The notes beneath the pieces are model-generated. The model saw only the letters and a list, made by a program, of their open reading frames with translations. It did not search any database and was not told where the DNA came from. Positions 4,805-59,371 of a DNA stretch of 64,000 nt are shown piece after piece. Position 1 is the first letter of the stretch; every line of letters starts with the position of its first letter. A program made the translations under genes and the position numbers. Where the stretch lies: NCBI GenBank assembly GCA_947561395.2, contig OX387193.1, positions 15,686,001 through 15,750,000 on the forward strand, in the 5' to 3' direction. The DNA comes from Buxus sempervirens. Lineage: Eukaryota > Streptophyta > Magnoliopsida > Buxales > Buxaceae.

Positions 4805-5073
4805 ATGGGGCTCTCAATATTAAACAGAAAGGGTTTTTTTTTCCATATATGTCTCATATATTGTGTTTTGAATACACTTATATTTTGAAATTGGCATTTG
4901 GTATCAAAAGCCTATCCTCCTGAACTAATTACTTTTGGGAAAGCAATACTTGTTCAAGTTTTCCATGGATTATGTGTGATATTTTGCTGAACATAAAGTC
5001 TGTGAAGAAGAAAAAAATCTGAACAAGAAAACCATATGAATTCAGAACACATTGTGGACATTTGTGTATTAAA

Positions 5074-5596
5074 CCATAGAGGGATGCAAATATTTTCATA
5101 GGAGGATACAAGTCCTATCAGACAGGGATACAATTAGTTTCATAGTAAGATGCAATCACACTCATAGGGGGAAACAAGTATAAACATAGAGAGATACAAG
5201 CATTTTCATAGGAGGATACAAAGTCCAGTCATACGGGGATACAATTATTTTCATAGTATGATGCAATCAAACTCATAGTGGGAAACAAGTATAATCATAG
5301 AGGGATGTAAGCATTTTTATAGGAGGATACAAGTCCTGTAATACAAGGATACGAGAATTTTTATAGGAGGATACAAGTATAATCATAGAGGGATACAAGC
5401 ATTTTCATAGGAGGATACAAGTCCAGTCATATGGGAATACAATTATTTTCTTAGTTCACACTCACAGGGAAAAAACTAGCATAGTCAAATGCCGTTATAT
5501 GTCTTGTCATACGGGGATACACGTATTTTCATAGTAGGATGCAATCACACTCATAGGGGGAAACAAGTATAGTCATAGAGGGATACGAATCCTAGT
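5074..5596 (+). repeat. Minisatellite array, forward arm of palindrome
   Basis: Tandem array with a higher-order period of about 111 bp (CATAGAGGGATAC starts near 5074, 5185 and 5296). Each period is made of four related subunits of about 27 bp of the type CATAGNNGGATACAAG. About four and a half to five periods can be read, the later ones more degraded. It begins about 270 bp after the stop of the Ulp1-like gene. Confidence 0.85.
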
Positions 5597-6065
5597 CATA
5601 GAAGGAGATTCATATATTCTATTCACGGAAATGGAATTTATGGAAAGATTACCGATCTTGAAGTCAAACAAAATATGTAGAAAATGAAGCAATTCCCATA
5701 TGTATGTATTGTTCTATTTCAGTGACAATGCCGTTTTGATTTTGGTGAAAAAGTTCAAGATCTATGATCCCTTAAATAGAATATTAGTGATTACTTCCAG
5801 TGACAATTGTTCAGTCTATCAAATAGATAAGTAAAGCTCATATTCTTCTGATTTTTATTTTATCAATCAATCAATCAGATAAAAGAATAAAGAACTAAAC
5901 CTTACCTTACATGAGTCTTTTCTATCCATACCACGAAAGAAAGAAATTTTCTTTTTTTTTAATCTAACATTCTAGTTTCAATCATTGATGATTCCATTGG
6001 AAAAGAAACATGGATTTATCTCACCTATCATTATTAAATTCGTGTCTCTTTAATCAACGAAGTAC
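5597..6065. other. Spacer between the two minisatellite arms
   Basis: AT-rich spacer of about 470 bp with no ORF or repeat that I can recognise. It separates the forward and reverse copies of the minisatellite and lies between the two convergent gene sets. Confidence 0.5.
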
Positions 6066-6380
6066 TTGTTTCCCCTTATGAGTGTGATTGTATCCTACTA
6101 TAAAAACAATTGTATCCCCGTATGACAGGACTTGTATCCTCCTATGAAAAGGCATGCATCCCTCTATGATTATACTTGTTTCCCCCTATGAGTGTGATTG
6201 TATCCTATTATGAAAATAATTGTATCTCCCTATGACAGGACTTGTATCTTCCTATGAAAATGTTTGTATCCCTCTATGACTCTACTTGTTTCCCCCTATG
6301 AGTGTGATTGTATCCTAATATGAAAATCATTGTATCCCGGTATGATTGTACTAGTTTCCCATGTGAATGTGATTGTATCT
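6066..6380 (-). repeat. Minisatellite array, reverse arm of palindrome
   Basis: The same ~111-bp unit as at 5074-5596 but reverse complemented (CTTGTTTCCCCCTATGAG, then GATTGTATCC). Nearly three periods are present. Together with the forward arm it forms an imperfect inverted repeat several hundred bp long. Confidence 0.85.
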
Positions 6381-6710: not shown

Positions 6711-9362
6711 TCATTGGGCTTCCAAGTCACTTCTAGCTTGCGAGGCATTACCCATATCTTTGTGCCTCCCATAGACCTCTCGTACAAGTGCTAATGATGA
6801 CGAATATGCATAACTCATAGTCTGTAATAGCACCTACATATGCTCCAATTGACTAACCACCTCCTAACAAAGTTTGATTATATGGTTAGATTCACAACTC
6901 AAAGAATAAAGAAAATGTAAAACAACAGTTCTTCCAATTAAATCATGGAATTATTTGTGGAAACAAATCTTACAGGGTCAATGTCTGTAATTCGGATCGA
7001 ATATCTTTTATGCATACAGCAGCATCCTCCAAAAAACTTTGGTGTTCAACCTATATAATGCGCCATTACATAAGTCAAAAACGAAAACAAAATAAATGGG
7101 ATTCTAGAACTAATGTACATGTTTGTGAAGTTAAATGACAAATTTCCAAAAAGTATAAGTGAAAATCTTAGAGATGCTTTCTTATAAGATCATTGTTTGC
7201 AATGCAAGTTCTAGTGTCTCCATTGGCAATGCCAGTAGCATCCTCGAATTCAGGAGGATCAACCTACACAACACATCATTAGGGAATTTGAGAATATTAT
7301 AACACAACAACTAAAGCGGGAACCTTCATTAGGGAAACTGTGGAGATACTTTCTTACATGATTGATGTCTGGGATTTTATTTTCAACATACTTCCTCAAT
7401 CTTGTTGGATCTACCTATATAACACACTACATATAAGCAAAATTCTTATTTTAGTGACAAGGCAGTTATAAAATACAATATACCTGTCCACACCCATAAC
7501 CACCAGCAACTTTCTCTGCTTTTTCTCTATTCTTGACACGCTCTTGAGTCCAAACCAACAATCATGGTGTCTGTATTTTAGCCTGGGCCAGACACACAAG
7601 AACATGCTCATAATAAAACAACTGAAAACAAAGGTGGTCAATCATCTTACTTGACACGAATATCTTTAATAAGTAAAATAACATTAGGAATATAACAAAT
7701 ACTATAAACATTTATTGTAAGTCTTCACCTGTAAGAATAAAAGGCAACCACCGATACACTGCTTCTTCTTGATTTGGAAAATTTTTATTTCTTCAAAAAG
7801 CCGGTCAACCACAAATGGTGTCCAATTTAATTCAAATAAACTACCTACATCTACCACAGTATGTAAAAAGGTAATACTGGCATGTAGGTTCGAATTTGGA
7901 CACAAGAGTGAACCTAATGCAAATAAAACAAATGCTCTTTTAAATTCAGGGCCACCTCCTAGTGAACACAACCTAGATTCTAAGTCCGACAGTGGTATTT
8001 CATGCTTCTCAATTTGAAACATATCACGAACCTCATGTATTATATCATCCGGTCTGGAGGTGATGACAAGATGTCCAAGGTGTCTAAGTCCTAGAATAAT
8101 ACTAACATCTACACTGCCTATGGGTATAGAATACTCGCCAATTTTTAGGCTATGGGTATCTACATCTACTTGCTCAATTAACCATGCATATAACTCCCTG
8201 ACAAGGGATGTGCATTGGAGATGGAGAATGGGCCCAAAACCAATCGCATAAATAGCCAATCGCTGGTCTGTCGTAAGCTGTTTGCAACAAGCCATGAACT
8301 TTCTAGGCGAGCATCTTGTCACCACACAAGGTTGCAGTTGCACATAAAGTGCTAATTAAACACAACACGAAGATATTTTGGGAAAAAATCTAATAATAGA
8401 AGTGTAGGACAAAACCTTGACTAGATGATATAATATGTGAGTTGAAGAAAAGCCCATAAATGGTTTTCAAAAATCTATTTTCAGAAGAAAATAGAAAGTA
8501 ACACCAACAATATTTTGGCCTGGCACAACAACAATAGTAGCTCCTAACAACAAAGCTACAACTACAAAACTTTCTGAATTATATCAAAAACATGTTTCAG
8601 TTGGTGTTACCTGCACATTTCTTCTTCTTTTTTGTGCAGGACGCAAAGATTGATACTCTACTATACTTTGGGTCAACAACGCTTGATAGTGCTGCCTTGC
8701 TTCTTGTGCCAAAGTGTCCCACTCTAGTTTTGCATCTCTCATCCCCTACAAATTAAATTATTCAAGATTAATTATTCAGTTTTAAATAAAAGAACCCAAA
8801 TCTAACTTGAATTAGGGGAAGTGAGAAGGAATGACAAAAAACATATATGCCGACATCAGAATTACTGTTCAAGGAGCCTCAAATATAAAGAACACCTAAC
8901 AATATGCTCTATAATATATAATCATTAAGATAAGACTTTGAATGCATGCTTTGCGTTGTGTGATTGTTTCTCCTTCTCTTTTGCGTTCCACAATATACTC
9001 CCTCCTATAAGAAGTACACAAATATTTTTTAAACATATACTAAAGCATATAATAAAATAAAACCTAGTTGCATTTTTCATATTCAATTCTCTTCGTTATT
9101 TTCTATTTATTGTATTCGTAACAACACTATATATAATTGATGAAGCATTTCTTATTTTTACTTAGACTCGTAACAAAGATAAATTTTAATGCTAAATTAC
9201 AAAATTTAATGTTGGATATTTTTCTTACATGAATATAACCCATGAGTTTAATGGTCTTCATGGAGCAACTGATGCAATAGGAGAGGTTGCTGCTGCATCC
9301 TTTGAAATTGAACGAGTTTGTCTTCTTACACGGGATGGATTTAGCACTTTCTTCCTTGCCAT
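6711..9362 (-). pseudogene. Plant-mobile-domain-like gene, multi-exon, broken
   Basis: Gene convergent to the MULE genes, read on the - strand. A likely first coding segment starts at 9362 (MARKKVLNPSRV, basic) and runs into a stop at 9258. Further exons with good splice borders are 8748-8611 (EWDTLAQEARQHYQ, ends in KRRR), about 8354-7729 (RCSPRKFMACCKQL, GFGPILHL, ELYAWLIEQ, ILGLRHLG), 7621-7484 (LFYYEHVLVCLAQAK, ends YGCGQ), 7414-7358, about 7263-7180, 7050-6974 and about 6863-6711 with the stop. The large exon matches the plant-mobile/DUF1985-like region that usually precedes Ulp1 domains in plant transposon proteins. There is an in-frame TGA in the 7621-7484 exon, where the family normally has Trp, and a weak donor after 7186. 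The function is unknown. I place it in the same MULE by context; that is inference. Confidence 0.6.
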
Positions 9363-11303: not shown

Positions 11304-14300
11304 TGTCAGCACCTCATTTTTGCACCTAGAAAAATGAAAAAATAAAACCCTAATGGAAAAGGTCAAACCTGAAGGGGTAAAAAATTTGACTTTTTGATTG
11401 GGTGCAAATTGACTACCAAACTTCATACCATTGGAAAGAGGATTCCGATACGAGTCTAACGACACTGAGTTTGCTCAAATCGGAGTCCGGATAAAGAAGT
11501 TATGGGCTGGTCAAATCTGGAAATAGCAGAAATCGGCTTTTTGCAAAACTCTGAATTAGCTGCTCAATTTTATACTAGCAGAAAGAGAATCTCGACACGA
11601 TTCCAACGCAACCAATTTTGCTGGAATCGGGGTCCTCGGATAAGGAGATATGATTAAAACTCGCTCCGGGACGCGACTTTGCACTTCTGCTAAAAAAAAT
11701 CCAAATTTGCTGCTAAACTCTGGCTCAGTGGATAGAGGATCCCAACTTGATTCCAACGCCACTAATTTTGCTGAAATCGGATACCAGATGAAGAAGATAT
11801 GAGCAGTTAAAATTTCGAATAATCTGCACATGTGGCAAAATTTGAAGAAAGGACAAAAAATAAAAATCTAATAATAAAATATTAATATTTTGTAAATATC
11901 TACTAATTAAATTAAATAAAAATCAAAAGGAAAACTAAAAGAGCACATGCGTATAGCAAACAAAAAATCTCAATAAAATATTAATATAGATTAAATATCT
12001 AACAATTAAAATAATTCAAAAAGAAAATCAAAAATCAATGAGCACATGGGATAACTTAGCGGAGAAGAATGCTCAAAAGCCATCATTGGTTCTTTTAAAA
12101 AATAGGGCACATTTTGAAAATGTTGATCATTTGGTCATGGAGTGCAAAAGTAATTGTGTTTTGGTCATGGAATATAAATAGACTTCCTTAGCCCATTTTG
12201 AGGGGAGGTCGGCCATTACATTTGTCTCTCCAACTTTTCTTCAAGGTTTGGCCTCTCCATTCTTCCCCCTCAATACCCTTACACGACCACCCCTTTCTCC
12301 TCATCTTCCATTTAATCCCAAAACCATTAAACCCCTCCAATCTCTTCTTTTCCTTCTTCTTCCTCTCCTAACCTCTTGAAAACAAGGAGGAATCAACTCT
12401 TGGAGACAAAAGGAGGTTTCCAACTTGCTGTCAATTTATTTTTGGGGACCATAACACTTTAAAAAAAAAGGAAAGTAATAGTAAGGCGAGATCCCTAGTG
12501 ACTTTGTGTTCATCATATATTTAATACATAATTTTCTTGAACATATTTCTTTTATTTGTACTAAGATATGCTTTTGCTGTATATTTCTCACTGTTTGCTC
12601 TTTTGGCATGATGTGGGAGTCCCCATGATAAGGGGGACTCCATGTGTGTAACGATGGGAGGAGAGTTGTATTTGCAAGGTAAAAAAAAAAAAAAGGGATC
12701 ATCCGGTTAATCTCCCCTTTTGTTCTCTTTACTCTTATTTCATTTTTAAGAAGGGATTTTCCTCTTTGGCAGATCTTTTGTACCCCTAAATTTTTCTCCC
12801 TCTCTCCTTTCAGTTAGGATGAGATTCTTGTTCCACATGTGTGTTTGTTTTATATGTTTTTTACTTGCTCTTATGGCCATATACTAAGGCTATTTGCATC
12901 CATCTAAGCATGCATACTTTGGCACTTTTTAGTATACTATCCTTCTCCTTATAAATATCAAGATGAAGGTTATGCACACACAAAAGTCTTTTTTAAGAAA
13001 AAAAGAAAAAAAAAGAGATTGAGTTCTCTGTTGTCTACTTTCTTCTTACTTTATAAATTGAAGTAGATGTATTCTTACTTGACATGCTTTCATCATCGAT
13101 TGGTGTTCGTGATCATCTTACCCACTCATGTTAAATACTTCTTTAAGATCTGTTTTCAATTAATTTCTATCTATTGTAAATACTGATATGGGATTTTGTT
13201 TTCATTAAGCCCACTAGGCCACTAGTATATATATCTATATTCTAGATCATTTGAGGTATTTCCAGCTCGCTTTTAAAATCAAGATTGGTCTTTTAAATCT
13301 TTGTTTTCTAGTTACTGTAGCTATGTACTATTTTCATGCATAGTTGTCATCAATTTGTTTGAGTTCTCATACATGATTGTCACCATGTCATTTGATTCAT
13401 ATACTTTCTCTGGTTTTGTTGAACATACATAGATGGTTTGTTCATTTAAACTTGGATTTAGGTCTTCCTTGATTTTTTGGTTTTCCTCCAAGGAGGGGAG
13501 AGATGAGCTTCATATTAATACTAAACAGGGACCCCTAGAGTCCCTGTTTCAAGACCCTAGAGGATGATCAAAGGCAGGAATCATCTCCTGTTCGAAAGCA
13601 CCATGAAGGAAGCCTTTTAGCAAAAATCAAGCCATGAACACCATTGCGCAACTCATGGAAGACAGCGGCCGCCCTGGGAGATGGCCGAGAGAAACCCACC
13701 TACATTCAGGTGTTTCTCGGATTTCGGGCATGGACCGCATCGGGTTTGCGATCAGACCCAATCCGTAAGGTAAAGGTGGTTGGACCCTGAAAGTTTATAA
13801 AACTTGATTTTTCCGACTCAGGTCCATCCGGTTCGATTCAAATAAGATTAGTTTGAACCCTTTGGGCTTTTGGGCTAACCCAAGCCCACTTTTAGTGACC
13901 TGGGTCCATTCAAACCCACCAAGGCATTGTGGGCTCTCCAATGGGGCCCACATCCAGACTGACCCACACTAGGATCCGTTTCATAAATGGGTCTCGGGTC
14001 ACTTGATTAAAAACCCATGGGCCAAGTCCAAGCCCAATGGGCCTTAAAACCTTAAACCCACTCAATTAAATTGCATGTTTAATTAACTTCAAAATTAATT
14101 GATCAAATCCAATAAGGGTTACCCAATAACCCTAATGGGCCATGGGCTTGACTTAAAGCCCAACTTGGCAACCAATGGGCCTTCCAACAGGGCCCGCATC
14201 CGATTCACTTCACTTAAATGGCTAAAAAGATAAAAATGAATAAAAGGAACTTACACCTGCAGAGGTCCCTACCACACTTAATCTGATACATGCTGGGTTA

Positions 14301-14548
14301 GGATTAGGGTGAGACTGAGCTGACTCGAACCAAGAAAATCCAAGGGACCCGTCAGATTGACGGGGCAGACTAGGGTGTTTTTGGACTTCCCCGGACCGTA
14401 ATTGAGAACTTAGCCGGAATCTTGAACTGCAGACCAATAGGCAAATCTAGGAACCCAGGTATTTGTCTGCACCCCATTAGGCAGTGGCGACTCCTGAATT
14501 CCCGAGGCACGCACTCCCAAGTGCACCTTGTGTGTGGCCATGCGCACA
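11304..14548 (+). mobile_element. Solo LTR, Ty3-like (Tat/Ogre-like family)
   Basis: Solo LTR of 3245 bp, TG...CA. It begins TGTCAGCACCTCATTTTTGC and ends near GCGCACA. A perfect 5-bp target duplication ATGGG lies at 11299-11303 and 14549-14553. It contains a TATA-like box (ATATAAATAG near 12172). Its 3' part carries the GTGGCGACTCC motif shared with the other two long LTRs of this family (42666-46454 and 48721-51595). There is no internal coding region, as expected after LTR-LTR recombination. Confidence 0.88.
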
Positions 14549-40299: not shown

Positions 40300-42250
40300 C
40301 TGCCGATTGACGAATCCGAGCCAGGGGTCCACCTTGGGACCGTAGTCCTCCCGAGCTGCCCACTCCTCGGACTGGGGATGAAGGAGAATCACTGATCCAT
40401 CCGCAGTTGTTCGAGTGTTGGGGTCCTGTGACCTCTTCACTGCTTTGCGGATCATCCTCGAGAGCACAGACGTAGACTTCGACCTTCTTTTCAACCTTAG
40501 ATTCCTCAGTGGGAGCAAGTGGAGTGTCTTCCTCCTCTCCTTTTCCAGCGTCAATTTCTGCTGGCAGTTTGATCCCCTCTTTGAGATATACCCTTACTAC
40601 TTGACCTGACCCTCCGATCAACACTGACGGGTCAAGCTACCCCTTATCACCATTACTGTCGTCCACCTGATTCACTGAGTTGCTGGTGGATGCCTTGGAA
40701 TGATCTGGGAGTGGATTGGTGGCAGTAGCTGTAGCAGGAGCTGTTGCTGGGTGATCGACGGAGATGCGTTTGCTATCGATCAAGTCTTGTACATCATGTT
40801 TTAAATCCCAGCAACGATTGGTGTGGTGTCCAAGGGCTCCCATGTGGTATTCACAGTACTCATTATCATTGTAGGTGTGACTGTTGGTTGGCTAGTGGGT
40901 CGGCTGCTTCTTCTGCAAATATCCTTTCTTCAACAGGGTTGGAAGTAGCTCTGACAATGGGTAGGGGAGACGTGTGAATACCCTGTTACACCTTGCTTGC
41001 ATTTCCTCTTTGGTCCACCTTGGCTGTCCTGCAAACTGCTCTCCTTGGCCATTGTTTTGGTTTTCCCTCCTGTCTGGTGCTGAGAAATGGAAAGGCCTGT
41101 TTTGTTGGACGTAATTGACGGTCTCGTCCTCCTTCTTCCTTTCCGTACCTCTCCCACCAACAGGGCTCCTTTTTTACTCAGAAAAACCTGTCATTCTGCC
41201 GGACTTAACTCCGTCTTCTATCCTGGTTGCTCCAATGTCGAGATGAACAGTGTTACCATCTCTTTTTCCAACATGGGGGGGTTGGACCATGGCAGCCATT
41301 TCCTGCCACCTCTTAGCATATTCTCGGATGGACTCGGTGCTTTTCTTGGACAACTTTTGTAGTTCCATCCGTGTGGGCAAGACCTCAGTGTTGAATTTGA
41401 AGTGCTCAAGAAAGGTGCTTGCCAAATCATCCCAAGTTCTGATTTGACTCTTGTCCAGACTGACGAACCACTTCTGTGCTGATCCTGTCAACAAACATTG
41501 AAAGAATTGAATCATGATTCTTTCATCATGCGCATATTGGCACATGTCTCCATAGTATGCTCGTAGATGCGACAGCGAACACCCACTTCCATCAAATTTC
41601 ACAAAGTCTGGGCCTTTGAACTTTGGTGGAAATTACAAATTAGGGAAAAATCCCAGTCTGTCCAATGAGGCTTCCTTTGACACAGGACCTCGGTTCACAT
41701 TCTGCATCTGTTCTTTTAGGGCTTGTAAATCGGCCAGCATCTGGGCTATGACATTAGCCAATTCTTGTGCTCGGTGCAACTCTTCTTCTTCGTGCCCCAT
41801 TCCCATCACTTGTTGCTGTGGAATAACAGGGGGTGTCGGAATCCTCAACGATAGCTCTGGCAAAGGTTGGGGAATTGGCTACTTTGGTGGCTACGGATTC
41901 AATTACGGAACTGCTGCTGGTGGCTACTTTGGAACGATTGGCAATGGCTGAGGAGTCAACTGCTGTGGCAGTGATATTGGTGGCTCCTGGGGAGGTACCT
42001 GCTGTCGTGGAGGTGTTGGCAACTGTTGCTGCTGTTGTACGAGCTATGGCGGCATTTGCAGTGTTTCCATTTGCTGCATCATGGTTGCCATCATGGTTGT
42101 AATGTTGGCCATTTGCTGGTTAATTCCAGTGATCACTGGATGGTCTTCCAGATTTTCTTGCTCCTGAGGCAGTGGAGGTAGTGCTTACTCTTGTCCCTCA
42201 GCAGGATCCATCTGTAGTTTTCTTCTTGAACATAGGAGGTACGGGCTGCG
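40300..42250 (-). mobile_element. gag region of the Ty3 element, fossil
   Basis: Retrotransposon gag text read on the - strand: KFDGSGCSLSHLRAYYGDM, WFVSLDKSQIRTWDDLAS, YAKRWQEMA, then further on GALGHHTNRCWDLKHDVQDL and DHSKAS. The order and wording fit plant Ty3 elements of the Tat/Ogre type. The upstream part is rich in Gln and Pro. Broken in several places. No protease, RT or integrase text follows, because units D and C begin immediately. Confidence 0.8.
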
Positions 42251-42365: not shown

Positions 42366-42660
42366 TTTTTATTTGATTGGAATGTGGAGACTTGAAGAGT
42401 TGATTTCCACTTGATTGGATTCTAGAAACGCGAAGCGTTGATTTCCAGAGGATTGGCTTGAGAGCTTAAAGAGTTGATTAAAGATTTTGAGGTTGTGGAA
42501 ACGCAAAGCGTTGATTTCCACAGGGAAACTTAAAGAGCTGATTTCCTGATTATTTGATTTGGGTGTGGAGACTCAAAGGGTTGATCTCTAGAGCAGCGGA
42601 AACACAAAGCGTTGATTTCCAGAAGGTTAATTTATGAAATTCTAAGAGATGATTAAAGAT
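42366..42660 (-). repeat. Leader hairpin array, left part
   Basis: About eight units of GGAAACGCGAAGCGTTGATTTCC type (CGC-GAA-GCG core, GGAAA/TTTCC arms) in the leader of the Ty3 element. The array is continued at 46461 after the inserted solo LTR. Confidence 0.8.
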
Positions 42661-43640
42661 TTGGGTATGCGCGAGGTCGGAAAATGCCGCACCGTGGGGC
42701 GCACGGATTCATGCGTGCCTTCGGATGGGTAAAACAGGAAGGTTGGAGTCGCCACCGCCTGATGGGGTGCAGACGGACACCTGGGTGCCTAAGTTTGTTT
42801 ATTGGGCTAGTCTGTGGCTTGAGATTCTAAGTAAGGTCTCGGTTACGGTACGGGGAAGTCCATAGACACCCTGGTCAGCCCCGTCGGTTGACAAGTCCCA
42901 TAGATTTCCTGGTTTGAGTCAACTCGGTCTTCACTCACCCGTTTCCTAATCTAGCATGTAATTTAGTTAAGTCTGGCGGGACTACCTGAGTGGTGTGGGT
43001 CCCTTCAATTGATTTTATTTTGCTTAATTAAGTGGTCTGAGTCTGAGTGAGTGGGACCTGTTGGAAGGCCCACGGTGTCCTTGGTGGGCTTGGTTAAGCC
43101 CACATATCCCCTGGTAGGCCTCCATCTAAGCCAACGAGGCCCTTTGGGCTTAGGTTAATCTCCTTTGTTTTATTTAGGGTTTAGCTTTGAAGATTTAAAT
43201 TAAGTTTTATTTCAGGTGGGCCGGATCAGTTTGTGGGCCCATTAAGGGGGCCACACAAGTATTTCCAAGTATTTTAATTTATCTTGGGCTTAATTTTCAA
43301 CATGGGCTAGATATTGGGCTTGGGGCCTGTTAGTCCAGACTTCGGCTGGAAAGCCCAAGGGTTTCTTGAGGTTGGGGTTTCAACCCTTACTTGTTTGGTT
43401 AGTGGGCTTGGTGGGCCCGGTAGGCCCTGGCCCGTGGTCTCGGCCAAACCATGCTGAATAAACATCATGTTTCCAATCGGGTTCTTTGGGTGGGCCGCAT
43501 TGGGCTTGGCCCACTCAGTTTGGTTGGTTAATTTATTTAAGTTGCATGCTTGTATTCTATCACGTTTGTCGAGCTTGGAGGGCCCCGTTTGGAAGGCCCA
43601 CAAGTGTTCCTGGTTGGGCCGGTGGTCCAAGTCCCATGTG

Positions 43641-43856
43641 GGGTTTCCGGGTGACCCGGAAACCCTAGTGGCCTGCTAGGTTTGATTGCAAAGATCACTA
43701 GAATGAAGCAAGGTCAAGGAATGCAACAAAATGGCATCTTCTGCCATGTAGCCGACCTTGAAGGTCGGCTACACACAAACCCTAATGTAGCCGGCCATGA
43801 AGGTCGTCCACATACACCAAACAGTGTAGCCGACCTTCAAGGTAAGGTCGGCTACA
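43641..43856. repeat. Hairpin words, set 1 (solo LTR)
   Basis: Perfect palindromes with one-base centres: 43641-43665 (arms GGGTTTCCGGGT/ACCCGGAAACCC) and 43747-43773 (arms TGTAGCCGACCTT/AAGGTCGGCTACA). Variant units of the second word follow at 43786-43812 and 43825-43856. Confidence 0.9.
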
Positions 43857-45636
43857 CACAAGTTTCAGGTGATCTGACTTGAGTTGTCGGATCAACCTGA
43901 AACTGCACTTTTTGGGGTTTTGCAATTGGGGTGGCTTTCCTGGGCTCCCTAGGAAGGTTCTAAGATTTTGTGGGCCCTTGGGAAGGCCCACACAGGTTCT
44001 GGAGATGGGGAATCCCCCATCTTTAGTCTCCTTTGGTGGTTTCTACAGCAAGGAAAGGAGAGGGCGGGGGGTGGGGGGGAGGAGGAGGAGGGAGGTTGCC
44101 TCCTCCCACTTGAGCCACCTATAGCAGCCGAGCAGGCACCATGTTGTCCCTATTTTGGTCCCTCGATTCATACAAAACAGCAAACCAAAATCAATGAGAA
44201 ATCCCCCTAACCAAAGGGCTCAATTTATACTTTAACCCAAGATAATGTACACTCATGCTTCCACTCGGTTTATTCCTAAAGCAGGGAAACTCATGCATGC
44301 ACTCAAGACAACCAAGCAACAAAGCATGTCATGTAAACACCAATAAAAAGTAACTAAGAAACCTGCTGTAGATAGGGGGGATAGCAACTGTAAGTGGGGG
44401 AAAAGACCTGTCCACCATGCTGGAAATAACAAGAACAAGGCGGGGGAGGCAACCTAGCATGTCACTAGTCACTAAGTTGTGGACATGTTCATGCCCTTGG
44501 TGTGTGCAAGTGGAGAGACATACCATGCAACTATGAATGCAGAAAATACATGCTGCAGGCGCCTTCTATAGTAGCTAGTAATGATGGTTTTAACATGGCC
44601 GACGAGGATGGGAAGTGCATAGGGAGTGGGGGAAGGGCTGCCTTCATGCATGACACTTAATGGGTTGCCCTGGGGGTGCAGGTAGTTGGGTGAGCTTTCT
44701 GGGAACAGCAGCTATGGAGGGGGATTTAGGCATGCTAAAGAGGCTGGGAACATCATAAACCTGGGTAGGGGGGGGGGGGGGGGGGGAGAAATCCTAACTC
44801 AATGCATGCCTGTACCATGAGCTATGAAACACAGAAACAGCATACATTAGAAAGAAACAGTAGCTGAAGAACACAAGGAAAATCATGGCATGAAGAAGGG
44901 GAGCATGCAATATTAATGGGGAGGGGGATAACCTAGCATAGATATGCACATTTCATGAATCAAGAGACACTGAAAGAAGCAGCACATCACTCAAGACGAG
45001 ATGGAATGAACCAAATGGGGAGAAAGGATAGGAGGGGGCTTACATGGGGGTACATGAGATTTGCTCTAGAAGGAACACACTTCCTCCAAAAAAAATATAA
45101 TAAAAAGAAGACCAAAACAGCAGCTTAAGTGACACAAAAGTGTAGGGAGAATTTCTCACTCCCTCCTTAGAACCCAACGTAGACCTCTCCCTTACTTGGA
45201 GACTTCCATGCAGTGACAATGAGAAAATGATACATGCAAAATTAGCCTTAAAATAGATTTTATGCCATGGAGGAAAACAAGCTCATTAGACACTTTAGAA
45301 AGACTTCATTTTGATATATGCGCAATAAAACATGGCAAAAATCCTTACCTTTGGGTTTTAAGCTCTCCTTGTGGTGTGTAAGCGACTCTTTGCAACAAAA
45401 ATCGAAGCTGGAAGCTCTCCTCCAAGTTCCAACAGCAGCAACTCCTCCCTTTGTTCGAGTGAGGTTGAAGGAAAAGAAAGGAACCAAGTGGTTGAAGAGT
45501 CTTAGGGTGATGTAGTGAAGGTGTGGAGGGCAAGAGGCTTGAAAGCAAGGGGGTTTAAATCAACTTGGAGGGGAGAAATGGTATTAAGGCCAACAACCCT
45601 CGGCCAGGGGGGTTGCTGGCCTTTTTATAGCAAAAT

Positions 45637-45875
45637 TTTGTATCCGACAATACTACACTTCCTTTGTATCCGACATTCAATGTCAGATACACTACACTTC
45701 TTTTGTATCCGACATAAAATGTCGGATACAAACACAATTATTTCAAAAATTGAATTTTGTCAGTGAATCTGTCGGCAAATCCGCGCGAATCTCGCGGGCG
45801 AATCCTTTGTATCCAAAATTCAATTTCAGATATGAAGAAACACATGTATATCCGACATTATATGTTGGATACAAA
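45637..45875. repeat. Hairpin words, set 2 (solo LTR promoter)
   Basis: Four to five units of the word TTGTATCCGACAT/ATGTCGGATACAA with short AT centres (about 45637, 45664-45690, 45702-45732, 45806-45834, 45844-45875). They begin directly upstream of the LTR TATA box on the - strand. Confidence 0.9.
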
Positions 45876-46460
45876 AAGACAAATTTTCGATATTTATAGA
45901 TTGCCCCTCGGATTTGACTAATTTGACCAATTTGATAATTGCAAATTTCCCCTTGGCTATTTGCAGATTAATCCCTGAGATATTTTGAACATTTTGGATA
46001 TTTACGAATTAATCCCCGAGATATTTATCTACGTTTTCGTCACGTGTGCTGCTCTTTTGCCACGTGTGCAGTTTCCAGCATTACTACCTGAAAACCTCAA
46101 CTGCTCATAATTTCTTCATCCGGACTCCGATTCTAGCAAACTCAGTTGCGTTAGAACCGTATCGAAGTCCTCTATTCATTAGGGCTGGACTAAATAGCTG
46201 ATCTGGGGCTTAGCAGAAAGTCAATTTTTGCTCCCCTTCAAGTTTGACCGGCCTACAAATCCTTCATCCAGACTCCGATTCCAGCAAACTCGGTTGCGTT
46301 GGAACCGTGTCAGGGTTCTCTATCCATTGAGATAAAGCAAGGTGGTCAATTATCACTTGATCAAAAAGTCATCTTTCGCCCCTTTAGGGTTTGACTTTCC
46401 AGCTAGGGTTTGCATTTCCAGCACTTTCGGGAGCGCAAAAATGAAGTGCTTACATTGGGA

Positions 46461-46925
46461 TTACGGAAATGCGAAGCGTTGATTTCCACAAGGGGCTCTG
46501 GAAACACAGGGCGTTGATTTCCAGACAACTGGAGATTTGGGAAACGCGAGGCGTTGATTTCCCAGAGTAGCGGAAACGCAAAGCGTTGATTTCCACTAGA
46601 AGTTCTGGAAACGCAGAGCGTTGATTCCCAAAAGATTTGAGAATTTGGGAAACGCGGGGCTTTGATTTCCCAGAGTAGCGGAAACACAGAGCGTTGATTT
46701 CCACAAGAAGTTCTGGAAACATAGAGCGTTGATTTCCCAGAGCAACGGAAACGCACAGTGTTGATTTCCACTAGAATTTCTGGAAACTCAGAGCATTGAT
46801 TTCTAGAAGATTTGAGAATTTGGGAAACGCGGGGTGTTGATTTCCACTAGGTTTAGGGTATGGAGACGCGAAGCGTTGATCTCTACATGGAGCTCTAGTA
46901 ACGCGAAGCGTTGATTTCTAGAGGG
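46461..46925 (-). repeat. Leader hairpin array, right part
   Basis: About thirteen units of the GGAAACGCGAAGCG/TTGATTTCC type, spaced 27-50 bp. Arm changes are paired: GGGAAA with TTTCCC, TGGAAA with TTTCCA, GGAGA with TCTCT, CTAG with CTAG. Same array as 42366-42660. Confidence 0.85.
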
Positions 46926-48720
46926 TTTGAGATTAGAAGTTGACTTATGATAATTTGACTTATTTGATCTTTCTTTTCTTTTTCTTATTTTTCTTCTTTT
47001 CATTTTATTTCCCTTTTATTTCTCCCTTTTTTCCTCAATTTGACCGATGGCCATCGGCAAGGATTAGACTTGTCCTTGATTTTTCTAATTCATTATTTTG
47101 GGCTGGGTTATAGCCAATTGATCTCACAAATTTTTTTTAATTAAGCTGGAACTGATTAAGGTACAGAGAATTGGAGTCATTCCTTGCCCCAATGCACACT
47201 CGGAAGCAATTTTAATCTTGGGAATTTAAAAAATTTTCATTTTTTTTTCTTTTGAAAAATGATTTGATCAAGCATGCTTATGCAGATGATCTTGAATTGT
47301 GTGCACTTGATGCACGAAAATGCTTATACAAAATTAAAGTCAAGGTTAAATAATATTACCATTCAAACAAAGATCTGTACAATTAAAAGTTGTGTGCACA
47401 ATCCTAAAAAGGTTGGTGCCCAGCAGGGAATGACTCCTAGACGTACTTGTGTATGGAAACACATCCGAGTCCTAATCGGCCTTCTTTCATCTGCCTTTGC
47501 CTTCAGGTGTCAGATCAAAGAAAATTTACAATTCGCCAACGAGGGCGAAAATTACAAGAAATCTACAAAAAATTTGCAAAGAATTCATCTTAAGGGCTAT
47601 TGGGAGCCCAAGAGAAGAGTACAAGTTTGCTTCAAGACAGGTAGGCTGAATTCCTAGATTTAGGGTTTTGTGCCCCTGTTCTGATCTGACCTACTTTTGC
47701 CTTATTGTTTGATCTAGCCTACTTTCATCTGCTCACAAGGCTACTCAATGGGTCAAGGCCCACGGTTCACAGGACTCAATGCATGGATCTGGGGTAGCTT
47801 CCCTGATCAAGATTCGAGTAGCATCCTAAATTAGGGCTAACGCAACCCATGATCTAGGACTCATTCAGTTGGATGCAAAAGGGCGGGGGTTGCTGCCGCT
47901 GATGGACTCTTGAATTTTAAATTGATTTTATTCATCTTCACTTCCATCATTCGCATCTCATTCATACTGCATCCACAAAGCTACGGTTTACCAGAAACAA
48001 TAGGTGAGGAAAGGGTACCCAGCCCGAGACATTCACCTACAAGTGTTTGAGTCAAGTACTAGACCCTCGCGTATCATGGCAAAAAACCAATGGTGCAAAG
48101 GAATCCTGAAACCTGGGGAGATGGGTTTACCCTGCTTTCCCCGGCAAGCCACGAGAGCGTGGGGCTAATACCATCCCAAAAATAAGTTCATCGGAACAAA
48201 AGGGTGGCTTCTAGGGAGGTCTAGGTTTTGGTGAAGAAGAGCAGCATTCCATTCCATTTCACAAAAGCATTCAAATCGGATCATTCACGCAGTCTCCCTC
48301 GTGCGTGTCACCCCACGCAATTATTATTCAAAACAGTAAAGCTCATCCATGGTGTGGTGAGTGCCCTGTGTGTAGTTGGGCAGAGTACTGTGTCTAATTG
48401 GGTGAATTTCGGATATTTGATTGGTAAAGGGTTCCCTGCTATCTCTTTATAGCGACGTACAGAATTAGTACGCGATACGATGTTCCAAGAGAGTCCCCAG
48501 ATAAGTGGAGGGGTCACAATGGTCCCGCTTAAAACCCACAAACTTTAGGCTATTATCTCGTCCTTTGTAACAGGACTCCCCAGAATACGTAATTACATGT
48601 ATTTCGTATTTCACTAAGGTTAGACAGCAAGTATTGCCTAAACCGATCTATATCCATCTATGTTGACCTTTTAAACCAGGGTCCGACTGGGTTGAGAGGT
48701 CCCCAGCGGAGTCGTCAAGT
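46926..48720 (-). other. Leader of the Ty3 element, non-coding
   Basis: Sequence between the 5' LTR and the hairpin array. Next to the LTR is the GACTCCGCTGGGGACC motif (- strand, 48698-48713), typical of the priming region of plant Ty3 elements. No ORF is supported. Confidence 0.6.
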
Positions 48721-49497
48721 TGTTCGCACCTTTTTTCGCACGACGAGGCGCACATGAAAGTGCGTGCCTCAGGACATTCGGAGTTGCCACTGCCTGATAG
48801 GGTGCAGGCAGACACCAAGGTACCTATTCAGGTCTAATTTAATTGGTCTACGGCTTTTTAGAGATCCTGGCTAAGTTCTCGATTACGTCCGAGGACATCT
48901 CAACCTACCCTGTCGGTCTGACGGGTCCCTCGGGTCTCCCTGGTTCAAATCAACTTAATCTCACCCAATTCCTATTCCTAGGCCAGCATGCATATTTTTT
49001 TGGTATGAGTGGGGACCACCAAAGGTGTAAGTCCCCTTTATTTTAATTGATTTTATCTTTTTAATCCTTTGTGAAGTGGGTCGGATGTGGGCCCCATTGG
49101 AAGGTCCATGGGATTCTGGATTGGGCTTAAGTCATGCCCAAGGCCCATTAGGGTTATTGGGTAACCCTATTATTGGATTTGGTTGTTCGATTTTTGGATT
49201 TAATTATATTTAAAAAATTTAGTGGGTTTAAACTTTTAAGGCCTACTGGGCTCGGATTTGGCCCATGGGAAATTAACCAAGAGGCCTTGGTCCATTATCA
49301 AAAAATGGATCATGGTTTGGCCGGATTGGGTGTGGGCCCTGTTGGAAGGCCCACAAAGCTTTGGTGGGCCCAAATGGGCCAAAGTCTCAAAATGGGCTAG
49401 GTTGACCCAAAAATCCCAATTGGTTCATATTAAATTTATTTGGGTGGAACCGGGTGATCTGGGTCCAAAAAATGGATTTTCATGTGTTATTTGGGCC

Positions 49498-49580
49498 TGA
49501 CTGCACATACTATGCAGTCAGGGCTGATCCGCACATGGAGTGTGGTCGGGTCTAATCTGCATATGGAGTGCAGATCTGAC
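49498..49580. repeat. Hairpin words, set 3 (5' LTR)
   Basis: Three units: GACTGCACATA/TATGCAGTC, GATCCGCACATG/TGTGGTC and ATCTGCATATGG/TGCAGAT. They sit at roughly the position of set 1 in the related solo LTR but with other sequence. Confidence 0.75.
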
Positions 49581-50735
49581 CTGAATCTCAAAGACGGCCA
49601 CAATCTCCATGGGGGGACATCCGCCAACTTCCCTCCGCGACTTGCTATGGGTTCCAAAACAACCCCATAGTGGTCCAAACCTCCATTTTTGCACTCAAAA
49701 TGCATTCTTTTTCTTCATTCATGCATGCATACATCTAACTACTCAAGCACTATCACATAAACGGAACTAACAGTGGAATCTATGTATGAAAAGCGTCATG
49801 TGACACACAATAATAACAAATGTAAAGATGTTAATTAAGAAACCAAGTACGCTTTTGAAATCTGATTGAAGATACTAAAAGTGAAAGATCTATGCTGATG
49901 AACTGAGAAAAACATGATGTTAATGTTTATAAAACAATTTTAAACAAATTTTAAACTTGCTTTTCATATGCGATGAGTGAAGGTGATTAAAAGAAATATA
50001 TAAACAGTGAATGATGGTGATCAAGTTTGTGCATGTGATGCTTTTCATACACATAAGCAAGGAATAAAAAGAGTATTCAATGAGTAAATGGCTTATTCCA
50101 ATGAAGGGAGAGAGAGAAGCAGGATTAAGGGTACAACAGATGTATGCAAAGAGGACAATCTCCTCTTAAAGAATAAATCGACAAAAACGAGAGATGGGTC
50201 TAAGATGAAATAAACATAAACCCTCTCCTCCTTTGGTTTTACTTTATACAACAAGGACTACCTCTTCCTCCCACTTTTTTGTATGGGGGAGTCCTCCTTA
50301 CCATGAGGACTCCCATAGCATGCACAAGGAGATCAAATGGTTAGAACAAGGCAATAAAAGATAGATTTAAAGTAAATAAAAGAAAACATGTTCAAAAATT
50401 TTGATTTAAATATATGGTGTGTACAAAGCAAGCAGAAACCTTACCTTGCTATTACTTCTTCTTTTTGAAGTGTTGTGGTCCTCCTGTTAATGTGGACAAC
50501 ACTTCAGAGCTTCCTTTGGTTCCAAAAAATGGTCATTTCATGGTTTTCAAAGGGTTAGAAGAGAGAGAGATGAAAAGGATACTTTCAAGGGCAAAATAGG
50601 AATTAAAAAGGGTTTTAGAGAGTGGGGAATAGGTTGAAGTGGTTTGTAGGTCTCCAAATGGGCTGCGTAACGGTAGGGGGAAGAAGCTCTCTCCAAACAA
50701 TGGCTGATGGGGCCTATTTATAGGCAAAATTTCTG

Positions 50736-50906
50736 GAACCGCACTCTGAACCCCACTTCAAGTGCGGTTCCTCTTGATCCGCATTTGAAATGTGGACAAC
50801 ATTTAAAACATGCGTATCTGCTTGAATCTTCCAGCTGTCGCTAAGGGTAAGATCAAATCCACATTTTAAGTGCGGTTTAGGCCAAACTGCACTTCAAATG
50901 CGGATG
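50736..50906. repeat. Hairpin words, set 4 (5' LTR promoter)
   Basis: Four units of the word ATCCGCACTT/AAGTGCGGAT and variants, starting just upstream of the TATA box on the - strand. Position matches set 2, sequence does not. Confidence 0.8.
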
Positions 50907-52019
50907 TGCACGTTTTTAAAATGTGTGATTTCAAACCACTTATTCAATTTGATTAATAAATCAGATTTTGTCCGATTTTCTTAGATTTTTTTTTATTATT
51001 TTATAAAAAAATTATTTTATTCCTGATATTTTATTTGCTTCACCTTTTTCTACTTTTTCGCCACGCGAGCAGTTTTTGTGAAACTTTGACTAGCCATAAC
51101 TTTTTCATCTGATGTCCAATTATAGCAAACTCAGTGGCGTTGGAATCAACTCAGAATTCCCTATCCACTGAGCTAAAGTATGGCAACAAATTCTGATTTT
51201 TAGCAGAAAGCCAAAATTGCTCCCCAGAAAACAATTTTGCCCATAACTTCTTATCCGGGACCCCGATTCCAACAAACTTAATTGCGTTGGGTTCGTGTTG
51301 AGATTATCTATCTTCTGGGAGCAAGTTGGGCAGCTGAACTTGACTTGATCAGAAAGGCAACTTCTACTCCCCTCAAGCTTGACCGGCTCATAACTTCTTC
51401 ATTCAGAATCTGATTTGAGCAAACTCAGTTGCGTTAGAGTCGTGCCGGAATTTTCTTTTTAATGGGAAGAAGTATGGTGGTCAATTTGCACCTGATAAAA
51501 AAAAAGTCAATTTTTGGCCCCTTTAGGGTTTGAATTTTTCAGATCAGAATTTCATTTTTTTACACTTTTGGGGGTGCAAAAATCAGGTGCTAATAGCGCT
51601 TTTTAAAAGCCACTGGCAAAACTCGCACAAAACCCCTTTTTTGGTTTTCTTCCTTATTTTTCTTCAAGCAAATTTGGGCAGCATCCTATAGTGGGATTTG
51701 CCTTGTCTCATTGGTTTATTTAAGAGTGGCATCATGGTTGTTTTATTTATTTATTTTTTTTTGGCCACTTATTATTACCCTTTATTTGCATTTTTCTCTT
51801 TTTTTTTGTTCATGTATAAGGCTAAGTGAGTGAAAGAATAGTTATATAATTAGGTCAAGAGTTTTAAAATAATCATACATTTATATTGAATATTTCTTTT
51901 ATCATAGGGTTGTAAAATTTCTTTCTAACATCATAAGCTTGTGGTGTTCTTAATTTTTTTAGAGTATTTTCAGAAAGATCAATAGAGGATTCAGGACATT
52001 TATCTCCAACTACTACATC

Positions 52020-58983: not shown

Positions 58984-59371
58984 CCTTGTAGACATAAAAG
59001 TGTCTAGAACCTTCCAACTCAAGTCTAAAGCATGAAATGGGGTAATTTGGCCAATTTCGGAGGCCAATTTGGAGAATTCCCACCTCCAAGACAGAGGTAT
59101 AGAAGTAAATAAGTGAAAACTCACGAGGTTTTCAATTTGGAATAAAACACATGTATCCGACAACTCAAGTCGGATACAAACAGAAATCTTTGTATCCGAA
59201 ATAATATTTCGAATACAAAGAAAAAGGCTTGTATCCGAAATTTAATTTTGGCTACAAAAGAAAATACTTTTATCCGAACTTTAATTTCGGCTACAAAAAG
59301 AAATAATTGTTTTTATGATTTCAGCCAATTATTCGTCATTTTATACAATGTAATTTTGGGTGTCTACAAGG
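58984..59371. mobile_element. Small element with inverted ends and hairpin words
   Basis: The ends are CCTTGTAGACA and its exact complement TGTCTACAAGG, about 388 bp apart. On the - strand it reads TGTAGACACCCAAAATT, a common LTR-like start, so it may be a short LTR rather than a MITE. No clear target duplication was found. Four hairpin words of the GTATCCGA type lie inside (59152-59299). Confidence 0.5.

Follow-up and report, generated by a model that had tools for sequence, protein, structure and literature searches.

Palindrome arrays upstream of the TATA box in long terminal repeats of Buxus sempervirens follow a common CCG-N11-CGG site grammar

In a 64,000-nucleotide stretch of the Buxus sempervirens genome (contig OX387193.1, positions 15,686,001 to 15,750,000; hereafter the window), two related long terminal repeats (LTRs), termed A and B, carry arrays of short palindromes next to their TATA boxes, which raises the question of what these arrays are and how their words change. 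A sequence-only reading of this DNA had described A as a solo LTR and B as the 5' LTR of a Ty3 element, and had proposed that the arrays occupy a homologous site, that their words are entirely different, and that such words are hypervariable and rapidly replaced. The palindromes at 45637-45875 (A) and 50736-50906 (B) are real. On the plus strand, block A directly follows CCTTTTTATAG and block B directly follows CCTATTTATAGG, so that on the minus strand both lie directly upstream of a TATA box. The anatomy was also confirmed, by the 5-bp repeats that bound LTR A, by similar repeats of the B-element leader on the two sides of LTR A, which is inserted in that leader, and by the gag ORF (open reading frame) of the B element, which scored above the Pfam cut-off. 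The two LTRs are homologous as well: 46102-46450 in A and 51238-51591 in B match at 71%.

42666 to 46454, minus strand: solo LTR of family A inside the leader of the B element, with target-site duplications TTGGG at 42661-42665 and 46455-46459
45620 to 45629, minus strand: TATA box of LTR A, TATAAAAAGG
48740 to 51597, minus strand: 5' LTR of the gag-bearing (41174-41632) element, family B, ends approximate
50713 to 50722, minus strand: TATA box of LTR B, TATAAATAGG
41174 to 41632, minus strand: gag of the B element (PF03732, E 2.4e-13)

The A and B words are one 17-bp site type, CCG-N11-CGG, in which a half-site (CCG and two further bases) is followed by a 7-bp centre and the inverted half-site. 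The view that the words are entirely different was therefore not borne out; the B half-sites are AACCGCACTT and ATCCGCATTT, and ATCCG is present in A too. In the window, sites of this type were located in the unique 3' (U3) part of both LTRs, on the side of the unique 5' (U5) part, and in an element of a further family, C.

45638 to 45650, minus strand: site S5 of array A, a single half-site remaining (complete in the related locus L101)
45665 to 45691, minus strand: site S4 of array A, CCG-N11-CGG type, CCGACATTCAATGTCAG
45702 to 45732, minus strand: site S3 of array A, CCGACATAAAATGTCGG
45781 to 45797, minus strand: CG-rich middle palindrome of array A, likewise 17 bp, CCGCGCGAATCTCGCGG
45808 to 45834, minus strand: site S2 of array A, decayed, placed by alignment, CCAAAATTCAATTTCAG
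45847 to 45873, minus strand: site S1 of array A, CCGACATTATATGTTGG
43747 to 43856, minus strand: U5-side array of LTR A, three TGTAGCCGACCTT-type sites, the first being CCGACCTTGAAGGTCGG
50737 to 50746, minus strand: site S5 of array B, a half-site
50749 to 50769, minus strand: site S4 of array B
50777 to 50797, minus strand: site S3 of array B
50857 to 50877, minus strand: site S2 of array B
50885 to 50905, minus strand: site S1 of array B, CTGCACTTCAAATGCGG
49499 to 49575, minus strand: U5-side array of LTR B, three sites, all decayed; half-sites of the CCGCA type, centres different
59152 to 59299, minus strand: array of the abundant family C, same grammar with CCGA half-sites, in the element at 58988-59369

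A window scan for CYG-Nn-CRG with a near-symmetric inside returned six sites at n=11. Four of these belong to LTR A, including one on its U5 side, and LTR B and the C element have one each. The spacings n=10 and n=12-19 returned no site, and no spacing below n=10 gave more than four. When palindromes were scanned without a preset motif, three were found in array A (200 shuffles: mean 0.35, maximum 2) and only two in array B (200 shuffles: mean 0.23, maximum 3). The count for array B lies within the shuffle maximum, so the decayed copy in the window is weak by itself and the case rests on its relatives. These are a non-random sample, taken from lists of best hits and from the beginning of contig C1, and duplicate or overlapping loci (L034, L065, L067, L027) were dropped before counting. 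Evidence for subfamily A2 comes from one element, and that for subfamily B2 from loci L064, L108, L109 and L110/L111.

Among these copies, with the window's own included and the four duplicate loci removed, the best-fit spacing was 11 for 120 of the 123 sites in 28 A copies, for 94 of the 102 in 31 B copies and for 120 of the 121 in 30 C copies. Exact CCG-Nn-CGG matches in 34 B-type copies also peaked at n=11, both in U3 (48 sites, with no other n between 5 and 20 exceeding 6) and in U5 (41 sites, with none exceeding 11). Across the 676-Mb genome (247 contigs), CCG-N11-CGG occurred 163,369 times, compared with 43,280 for N10 and 40,613 for N12. The more specific pattern TGTATCCG-N(7-15)-CGGATACA gave 23,911 sites (control 3), of which 39 had N12-15, with N7-10 not counted separately; the 68 distinct sites among the matches listed were all N11. 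For CCGnnnTTnAAnnnCGG, 18,217 sites were found versus 614 for the reversed pattern. The layout of the arrays is shared too: in the A2 block, in two B2 blocks and in B copies such as L013, five sites stand directly before the TATA box, and a CG-rich middle separates two upstream sites from three downstream ones. The distance from one site to the next is 28 bp in B and B2 and about 39 bp in A and C.

The two arms of a site change together at the two bases next to CCG (+1 and +2). Among the CCGnnnTTnAAnnnCGG sites listed, the arms matched in 47/50 cases at +1 and 47/50 at +2, and among the TGTATCCG-N-CGGATACA sites listed in 58/68 and 48/68; none of 5000 arm shuffles reached these values in either list. 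Shuffling arms among sites does not remove the relatedness of copies. With one site per locus the signal was weaker but persisted: the first list gave 12/13 and 11/13 (reached by 18 and 11 of 5000 shuffles) and the second 16/20 and 15/20 (reached by 165 and 2 of 5000). In the first 100 of 3,824 sites with the fixed asymmetric centre CAACTCAGG, the +1 pair was G..C in 68, A..T in 26, G..T in 2 and A..C in 4, where 58.8 symmetric pairs were expected under independence. The +2 pair covaried likewise in the fetched copies of A (109/120, expected 76.4) and C (113/120, expected 72.3). No covariation between arms was seen at +3 (20/50 and 17/68 in the two site lists), nor at +4 and +5 (26/68 and 9/68, TGTATCCG-N-CGGATACA list only). 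The unit is thus the half-site, CCG plus two bases, held at a rigid distance around a centre of 7 bp. This centre varies in U5 arrays; in the U3 arrays of B it is almost always nTTnAAn.

Covariation that ends at +2 leaves a 7-nt, loop-like centre, as would be expected if the symmetry were that of RNA hairpins, with U3/U5 RNA folding for 3'-end formation, packaging or small interfering RNAs. We consider this explanation unlikely. A wobble signature was sought, and no excess of G.U over A.C was found on the sense strand of the copies (A 51 versus 96, the reverse of the expected direction; C 57 versus 46; B 59 versus 52); the list with centre CAACTCAGG gave 2 versus 4, the sense strand per site not being established there. 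The U3 centres of A and B are usually TTnAA or TnnnA, for which pairing across so short a loop is impossible, and a stem has no need of a fixed CCG or of a fixed 11-bp distance.

Between subfamilies, the half-sites differ in the same bases of both arms. For these comparisons partial blocks were dropped, which kept 22 of 28 A copies and 24 B copies. The five sites of A and A2 are in register when aligned, and identity between the A copies and A2 was 0.96 at the outer bases -1-2, 0.86 at CCG/CGG, 0.60 in the linker, 0.37 in the centre and 0.30 at +1+2. Against three B2 blocks, the B copies were 0.80-0.84 identical at CCG/CGG, 0.69-0.80 in the centre, 0.54-0.58 in the linker, 0.51-0.57 at +1+2 (of which only +1 changed in B2) and 0.15-0.27 at -1-2. 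The B2 blocks L108 and L109 follow the same 2+3 plan with CCGTA in 10/10 half-sites each, and L064 has it in 9/10. In both pairs the change at the specificity bases is alike in the two arms of the sites. Ordinary descent, in which an ancestral palindrome array was inherited by families that drifted apart with turnover at the background rate, would account for the common register of A and A2, for the plan shared with B, and for half-sites common to most copies of a family. Drift would not alter the same bases in both arms, however, nor would it bring the specificity bases (0.30; 0.15-0.27) below the linkers (0.54-0.60) while CCG stayed at 0.80-0.86, and we regard this explanation as very improbable.

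Within families, most copies share the half-site. At least one site fitting TGTATCCG-N11-CGGATACA with three mismatches or fewer was present in 28/28 A copies, and CCGCA was found in 44/48 left and 43/48 right arms of the exact B sites in U3. Tempo was measured by transversions, to avoid methylation decay, in 27 A, 25 B and 28 C copies, once blocks that covered under 300 bp of the reference had been dropped. Divergence at CCG/CGG was lower than in the linkers in all three families (A 0.035 versus 0.074, B 0.039 versus 0.101, C 0.013 versus 0.070). The 7-bp centre diverged more than the linkers in A (0.179) and C (0.114) and not in B (0.068). At +1+2 the divergence in A was 0.099, not slower than the linkers, and A contains both CCGAC and CCGAA sites. 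With half-sites common to most copies and CCG anchors that change slowly, the description of the words as hypervariable fails within families, by the refuting condition that the sequence-only reading had itself set. Fast replacement survives in part between subfamilies, where the specificity bases lie below linker identity and the anchors are kept.

LTRs A and B have a second array on the U5 side, separated from the first by roughly 0.85-1.9 kb; per LTR, five U3 sites and as many as four U5 sites were observed. U5-side sites were recovered in 21 of 37 B-type rows (two rows yielded no U3 sites and several loci end short of the U5 side), with CCGCA as in the U3 array. Because this count kept arms only if equal or CA/TA, a filter that favours symmetry, it was repeated unfiltered on 34 B-type copies: CCGCA was present in both arms of 33/41 exact U5 sites, and these 33 had 25 distinct 7-mer centres. 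In B2, CCGTA accounted for 6/6 half-sites on the U5 side (L110) and 8/10 in U3 (L111), again with different centres; the two loci are about 0.8-0.85 kb apart in one orientation and appear to belong to one LTR. One U5-side site of A2 (C1:5921250 and 5935892) likewise pairs an ATCCGGC arm with an ATCCGGT arm.

The presence of CCGTA in both B2 arrays with different centres is not explained by slippage or whole-unit copying. This bears on a purely mutational origin, in which one arm is copied to the other when reverse transcription switches template at a hairpin, and slippage spreads the word, all without function. Slippage could produce the 28-bp (B, B2) or roughly 39-bp (A, C) periodicity, and a single template switch makes a symmetric change in one step. 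Such a process would not be expected to preserve CCG and N11 while the specificity bases turn over, to leave the anchors slower than the linkers, or to place the B2 half-site in two separate arrays, each with its own centres. Correction of arms after insertion was considered and rejected: symmetric pairs at CCG/CGG match independence, so the arms decay independently and genomic copies are not corrected arm to arm. An origin by mutation only is accordingly judged improbable.

We favour, with a probability of roughly 60%, the reading in which each array is a cluster of sites bound by a putative dimeric, sequence-specific DNA-binding protein. The earlier suggestion of dimeric transcription factor sites is favoured as to the dimeric site, on the site geometry and symmetry. 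Each monomer would read CCG and neighbouring bases, and the dimer would set the 11-bp distance. The array would recruit the protein, which may drive or derepress the LTR promoter. If a lineage came to depend on a different paralogue or allele, selection in active copies could replace the specificity bases of the half-sites, and dead copies would then decay arm by arm. Given binding arrays, an exchange of specificity between subfamilies would be the best reading of the A/A2 and B/B2 differences. A wider proposal, which we regard as possible but doubtful, is that several LTR families share one promoter code, in which CCG-N11-CGG carries two exchangeable bases in each half-site, and that subfamilies have switched this code jointly, in two arrays, to follow a diversifying dimeric protein, host- or element-encoded, that licenses or de-silences the LTR. 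If true, this would be a retrotransposon counterpart of VANC coevolution. Relative to neighbouring spacings there is a genome-wide excess of about 120,000 sites, not all placed in LTRs, which would amount to a reservoir of ready-made dimer sites.

Several observations weigh against binding by a dimer. The genome-wide N11 excess is only 1.3-fold relative to the reversed-pattern control (126,325); as the reversed pattern is itself common (143,005 at N10 and 105,655 at N12), this control was judged a poor baseline, and N10 and N12 of the same pattern were used instead. At +3 (C/T), B sites are less symmetric than independence predicts (34/94 versus 47.0). Some centres are asymmetric and common to several families (CAACTCAGG), which a pure homodimer model does not need, and the centre is more alike between B and B2 than the linkers (0.69-0.80 versus 0.54-0.58), so the U3 centre is not simply free. 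The U5 sites of family A are AGCCGAC (window) or CCGAA (L007, L008) and the U3 sites ATCCGAC; agreement between U3 and U5 is therefore not strict. The symmetric changes may go back to a small number of ancestral events that many copies have inherited. The window contains a third LTR (11304-14548), solo, in plus-strand sense, with a 5-bp ATGGG repeat at both ends and 73-74% match to LTR B over three stretches; it has a TATA box (TATAAATAG at 12173-12181) and no CCG-N11-CGG site in the window scan. Finally, Pfam recognised no additional DNA-binding ORF, only gag and pol in one A2 element.

That element, on contig C1, is apparently full-length, with the same site words 14.6 kb apart. Its pol has the order RVT_1, RNase H and RVT_3, then Integrase_H2C2 and rve, which is the Ty3 order; in Ty1/Copia elements, integrase precedes reverse transcriptase. 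Its gag match is weak (21.4 bits, cut-off 24.1). The assignment to Ty3 LTR retrotransposons is based on gag, on the order of reverse transcriptase, RNase H and integrase in A2, and on solo LTRs with the 5-bp repeats TTGGG and ATGGG. Criteria for the Tat/Retand lineage are a second RNase H-like domain, a hallmark, and an antisense TRP28 ORF. RVT_3 is present in the A2 pol; PF04195 (TRP28) was not found in the genome, in a search that was likewise silent in control genomes, nor in six A2 antisense ORFs scanned. One Pfam scan covered six ORFs and gave three matches (the A2 gag below cut-off, the A2 pol and the window gag). A second, of seven ORFs, gave one match below cut-off and one chance match (Subtilosin_A, 13.8 bits); the former was the window ORF at 7702-8355, a weak match to the plant mobile domain (PMD; PF10536, 30.6 bits, cut-off 34.9). 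LBD-type proteins were considered as presumed CCG readers, and the literature searched gave no usable site data for them.

Other repeats were noted beside these features. The leader between LTR and gag holds a further near-palindromic tandem array of the GGAAACGCAGAGCGTTGATTTCC type (42373-42650 and 46465-46940). In LTR A, an imperfect palindrome of 34 bp directly follows the TATA box (45588-45621; plus strand, GGCCAACAACC..GGTTGCTGGCC) and would fall at the transcript start. The C element has the ends TGTAGACA/TGTCTACA, and its family is abundant (1,351 first-look candidates); in the relatives L099, L102 and L104, TATAAATAG lies about 150-165 bp downstream of the array. An asymmetric 23-mer, TATCCGGCAACTCAGGCCGGATA, is identical in A2 (L101, C1:5934400-5935400) and in C-type LTRs on C1, in opposite orientations relative to TATA in the two families. 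A further pair of arrays, with units of 22 bp that run in opposite directions, CATAGAGGGATACAAGTATTTT and TTGTATCCCCCTATGAAAATGA (5070-5454 and 6063-6379), perhaps marks the ends of a DNA transposon; both have TTGTATCC in common with the A and C half-sites.

CCG-N11-CGG, in three spellings, had no match in the literature searched, whose partial coverage means that this says little. In 2016, Bousios and colleagues reportedly connected a palindrome-rich cis-region in the LTRs of maize Sireviruses with the evolution of the elements and with silencing by the host; these elements are said to be Ty1/Copia and not Ty3. Tnt1 of tobacco is likewise Ty1/Copia. Repeated BII boxes in its LTR promoter bind defence-induced host factors, and its subfamilies are differently regulated; the passages compared describe no palindrome or fixed-spacing grammar (PMC3316501). 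In VANDAL elements, according to the portions consulted, short VANC-target motifs form tandem arrays in noncoding parts with units that diverge together (PMC5735166), much as the units here change together, and their turnover is tied to a sequence-specific, self-encoded anti-silencing protein, VANC (PMC5735166, PMC10398659). VANDAL is a DNA transposon with motifs in the same orientation, whereas the present sites are LTR palindromes. A VANC-type system also calls for an element-encoded protein that binds the array and strips methylation from it; in the one A2 element read, Pfam recognised only gag and pol. Fungal Zn2Cys6 homodimers, in the part of the source used, read paired, everted CGG triplets (PMC5559640); as a fungal protein class they may serve only as an analogy for how a rigid spacing could originate. 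Retand (Ty3) elements are described, in the parts compared, with antisense TRP28 ORFs and LTRs of 315-1,194 bp (PMC11963269), compared with 3.8 kb for LTR A.

The closest known kind is the Sirevirus (Ty1/Copia) LTR, with palindromic CGG-CCG boxes that the present arrays would resemble in the way they work. In the sections compared (PMC2829016), repeated palindromic motif (RM) boxes cluster upstream of TATA, and all of the 13 elements except one have a CGG-CCG signature as their shared base; the words mostly differ between elements, and the lengths and spacings of the consensus words vary. The criteria include at least eight copies per element and CpG islands, and the motif is called Sirevirus-specific. 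The authors proposed that nuclear factors are involved and that binding may change when a symmetric motif is altered by a substitution. The arrays described here share the repeated palindromes, the CGG/CCG signature and the position. They are not classed as RM members, because gene order in the one A2 element examined is that of Ty3 and because the spacing stays at 11 bp from family to family. The Sirevirus sections compared describe no covariation of the arms, no switch between subfamilies and no further array in U5 that repeats the half-site, all of which are seen here. Palindromic promoter boxes, described as a Sirevirus trait, are found here with rigid geometry and countable symmetric switches in a Ty3-type element. 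It becomes testable which protein plant LTR promoters depend on and whether element lineages change partners, and the site grammar is precise enough for a direct protein search.

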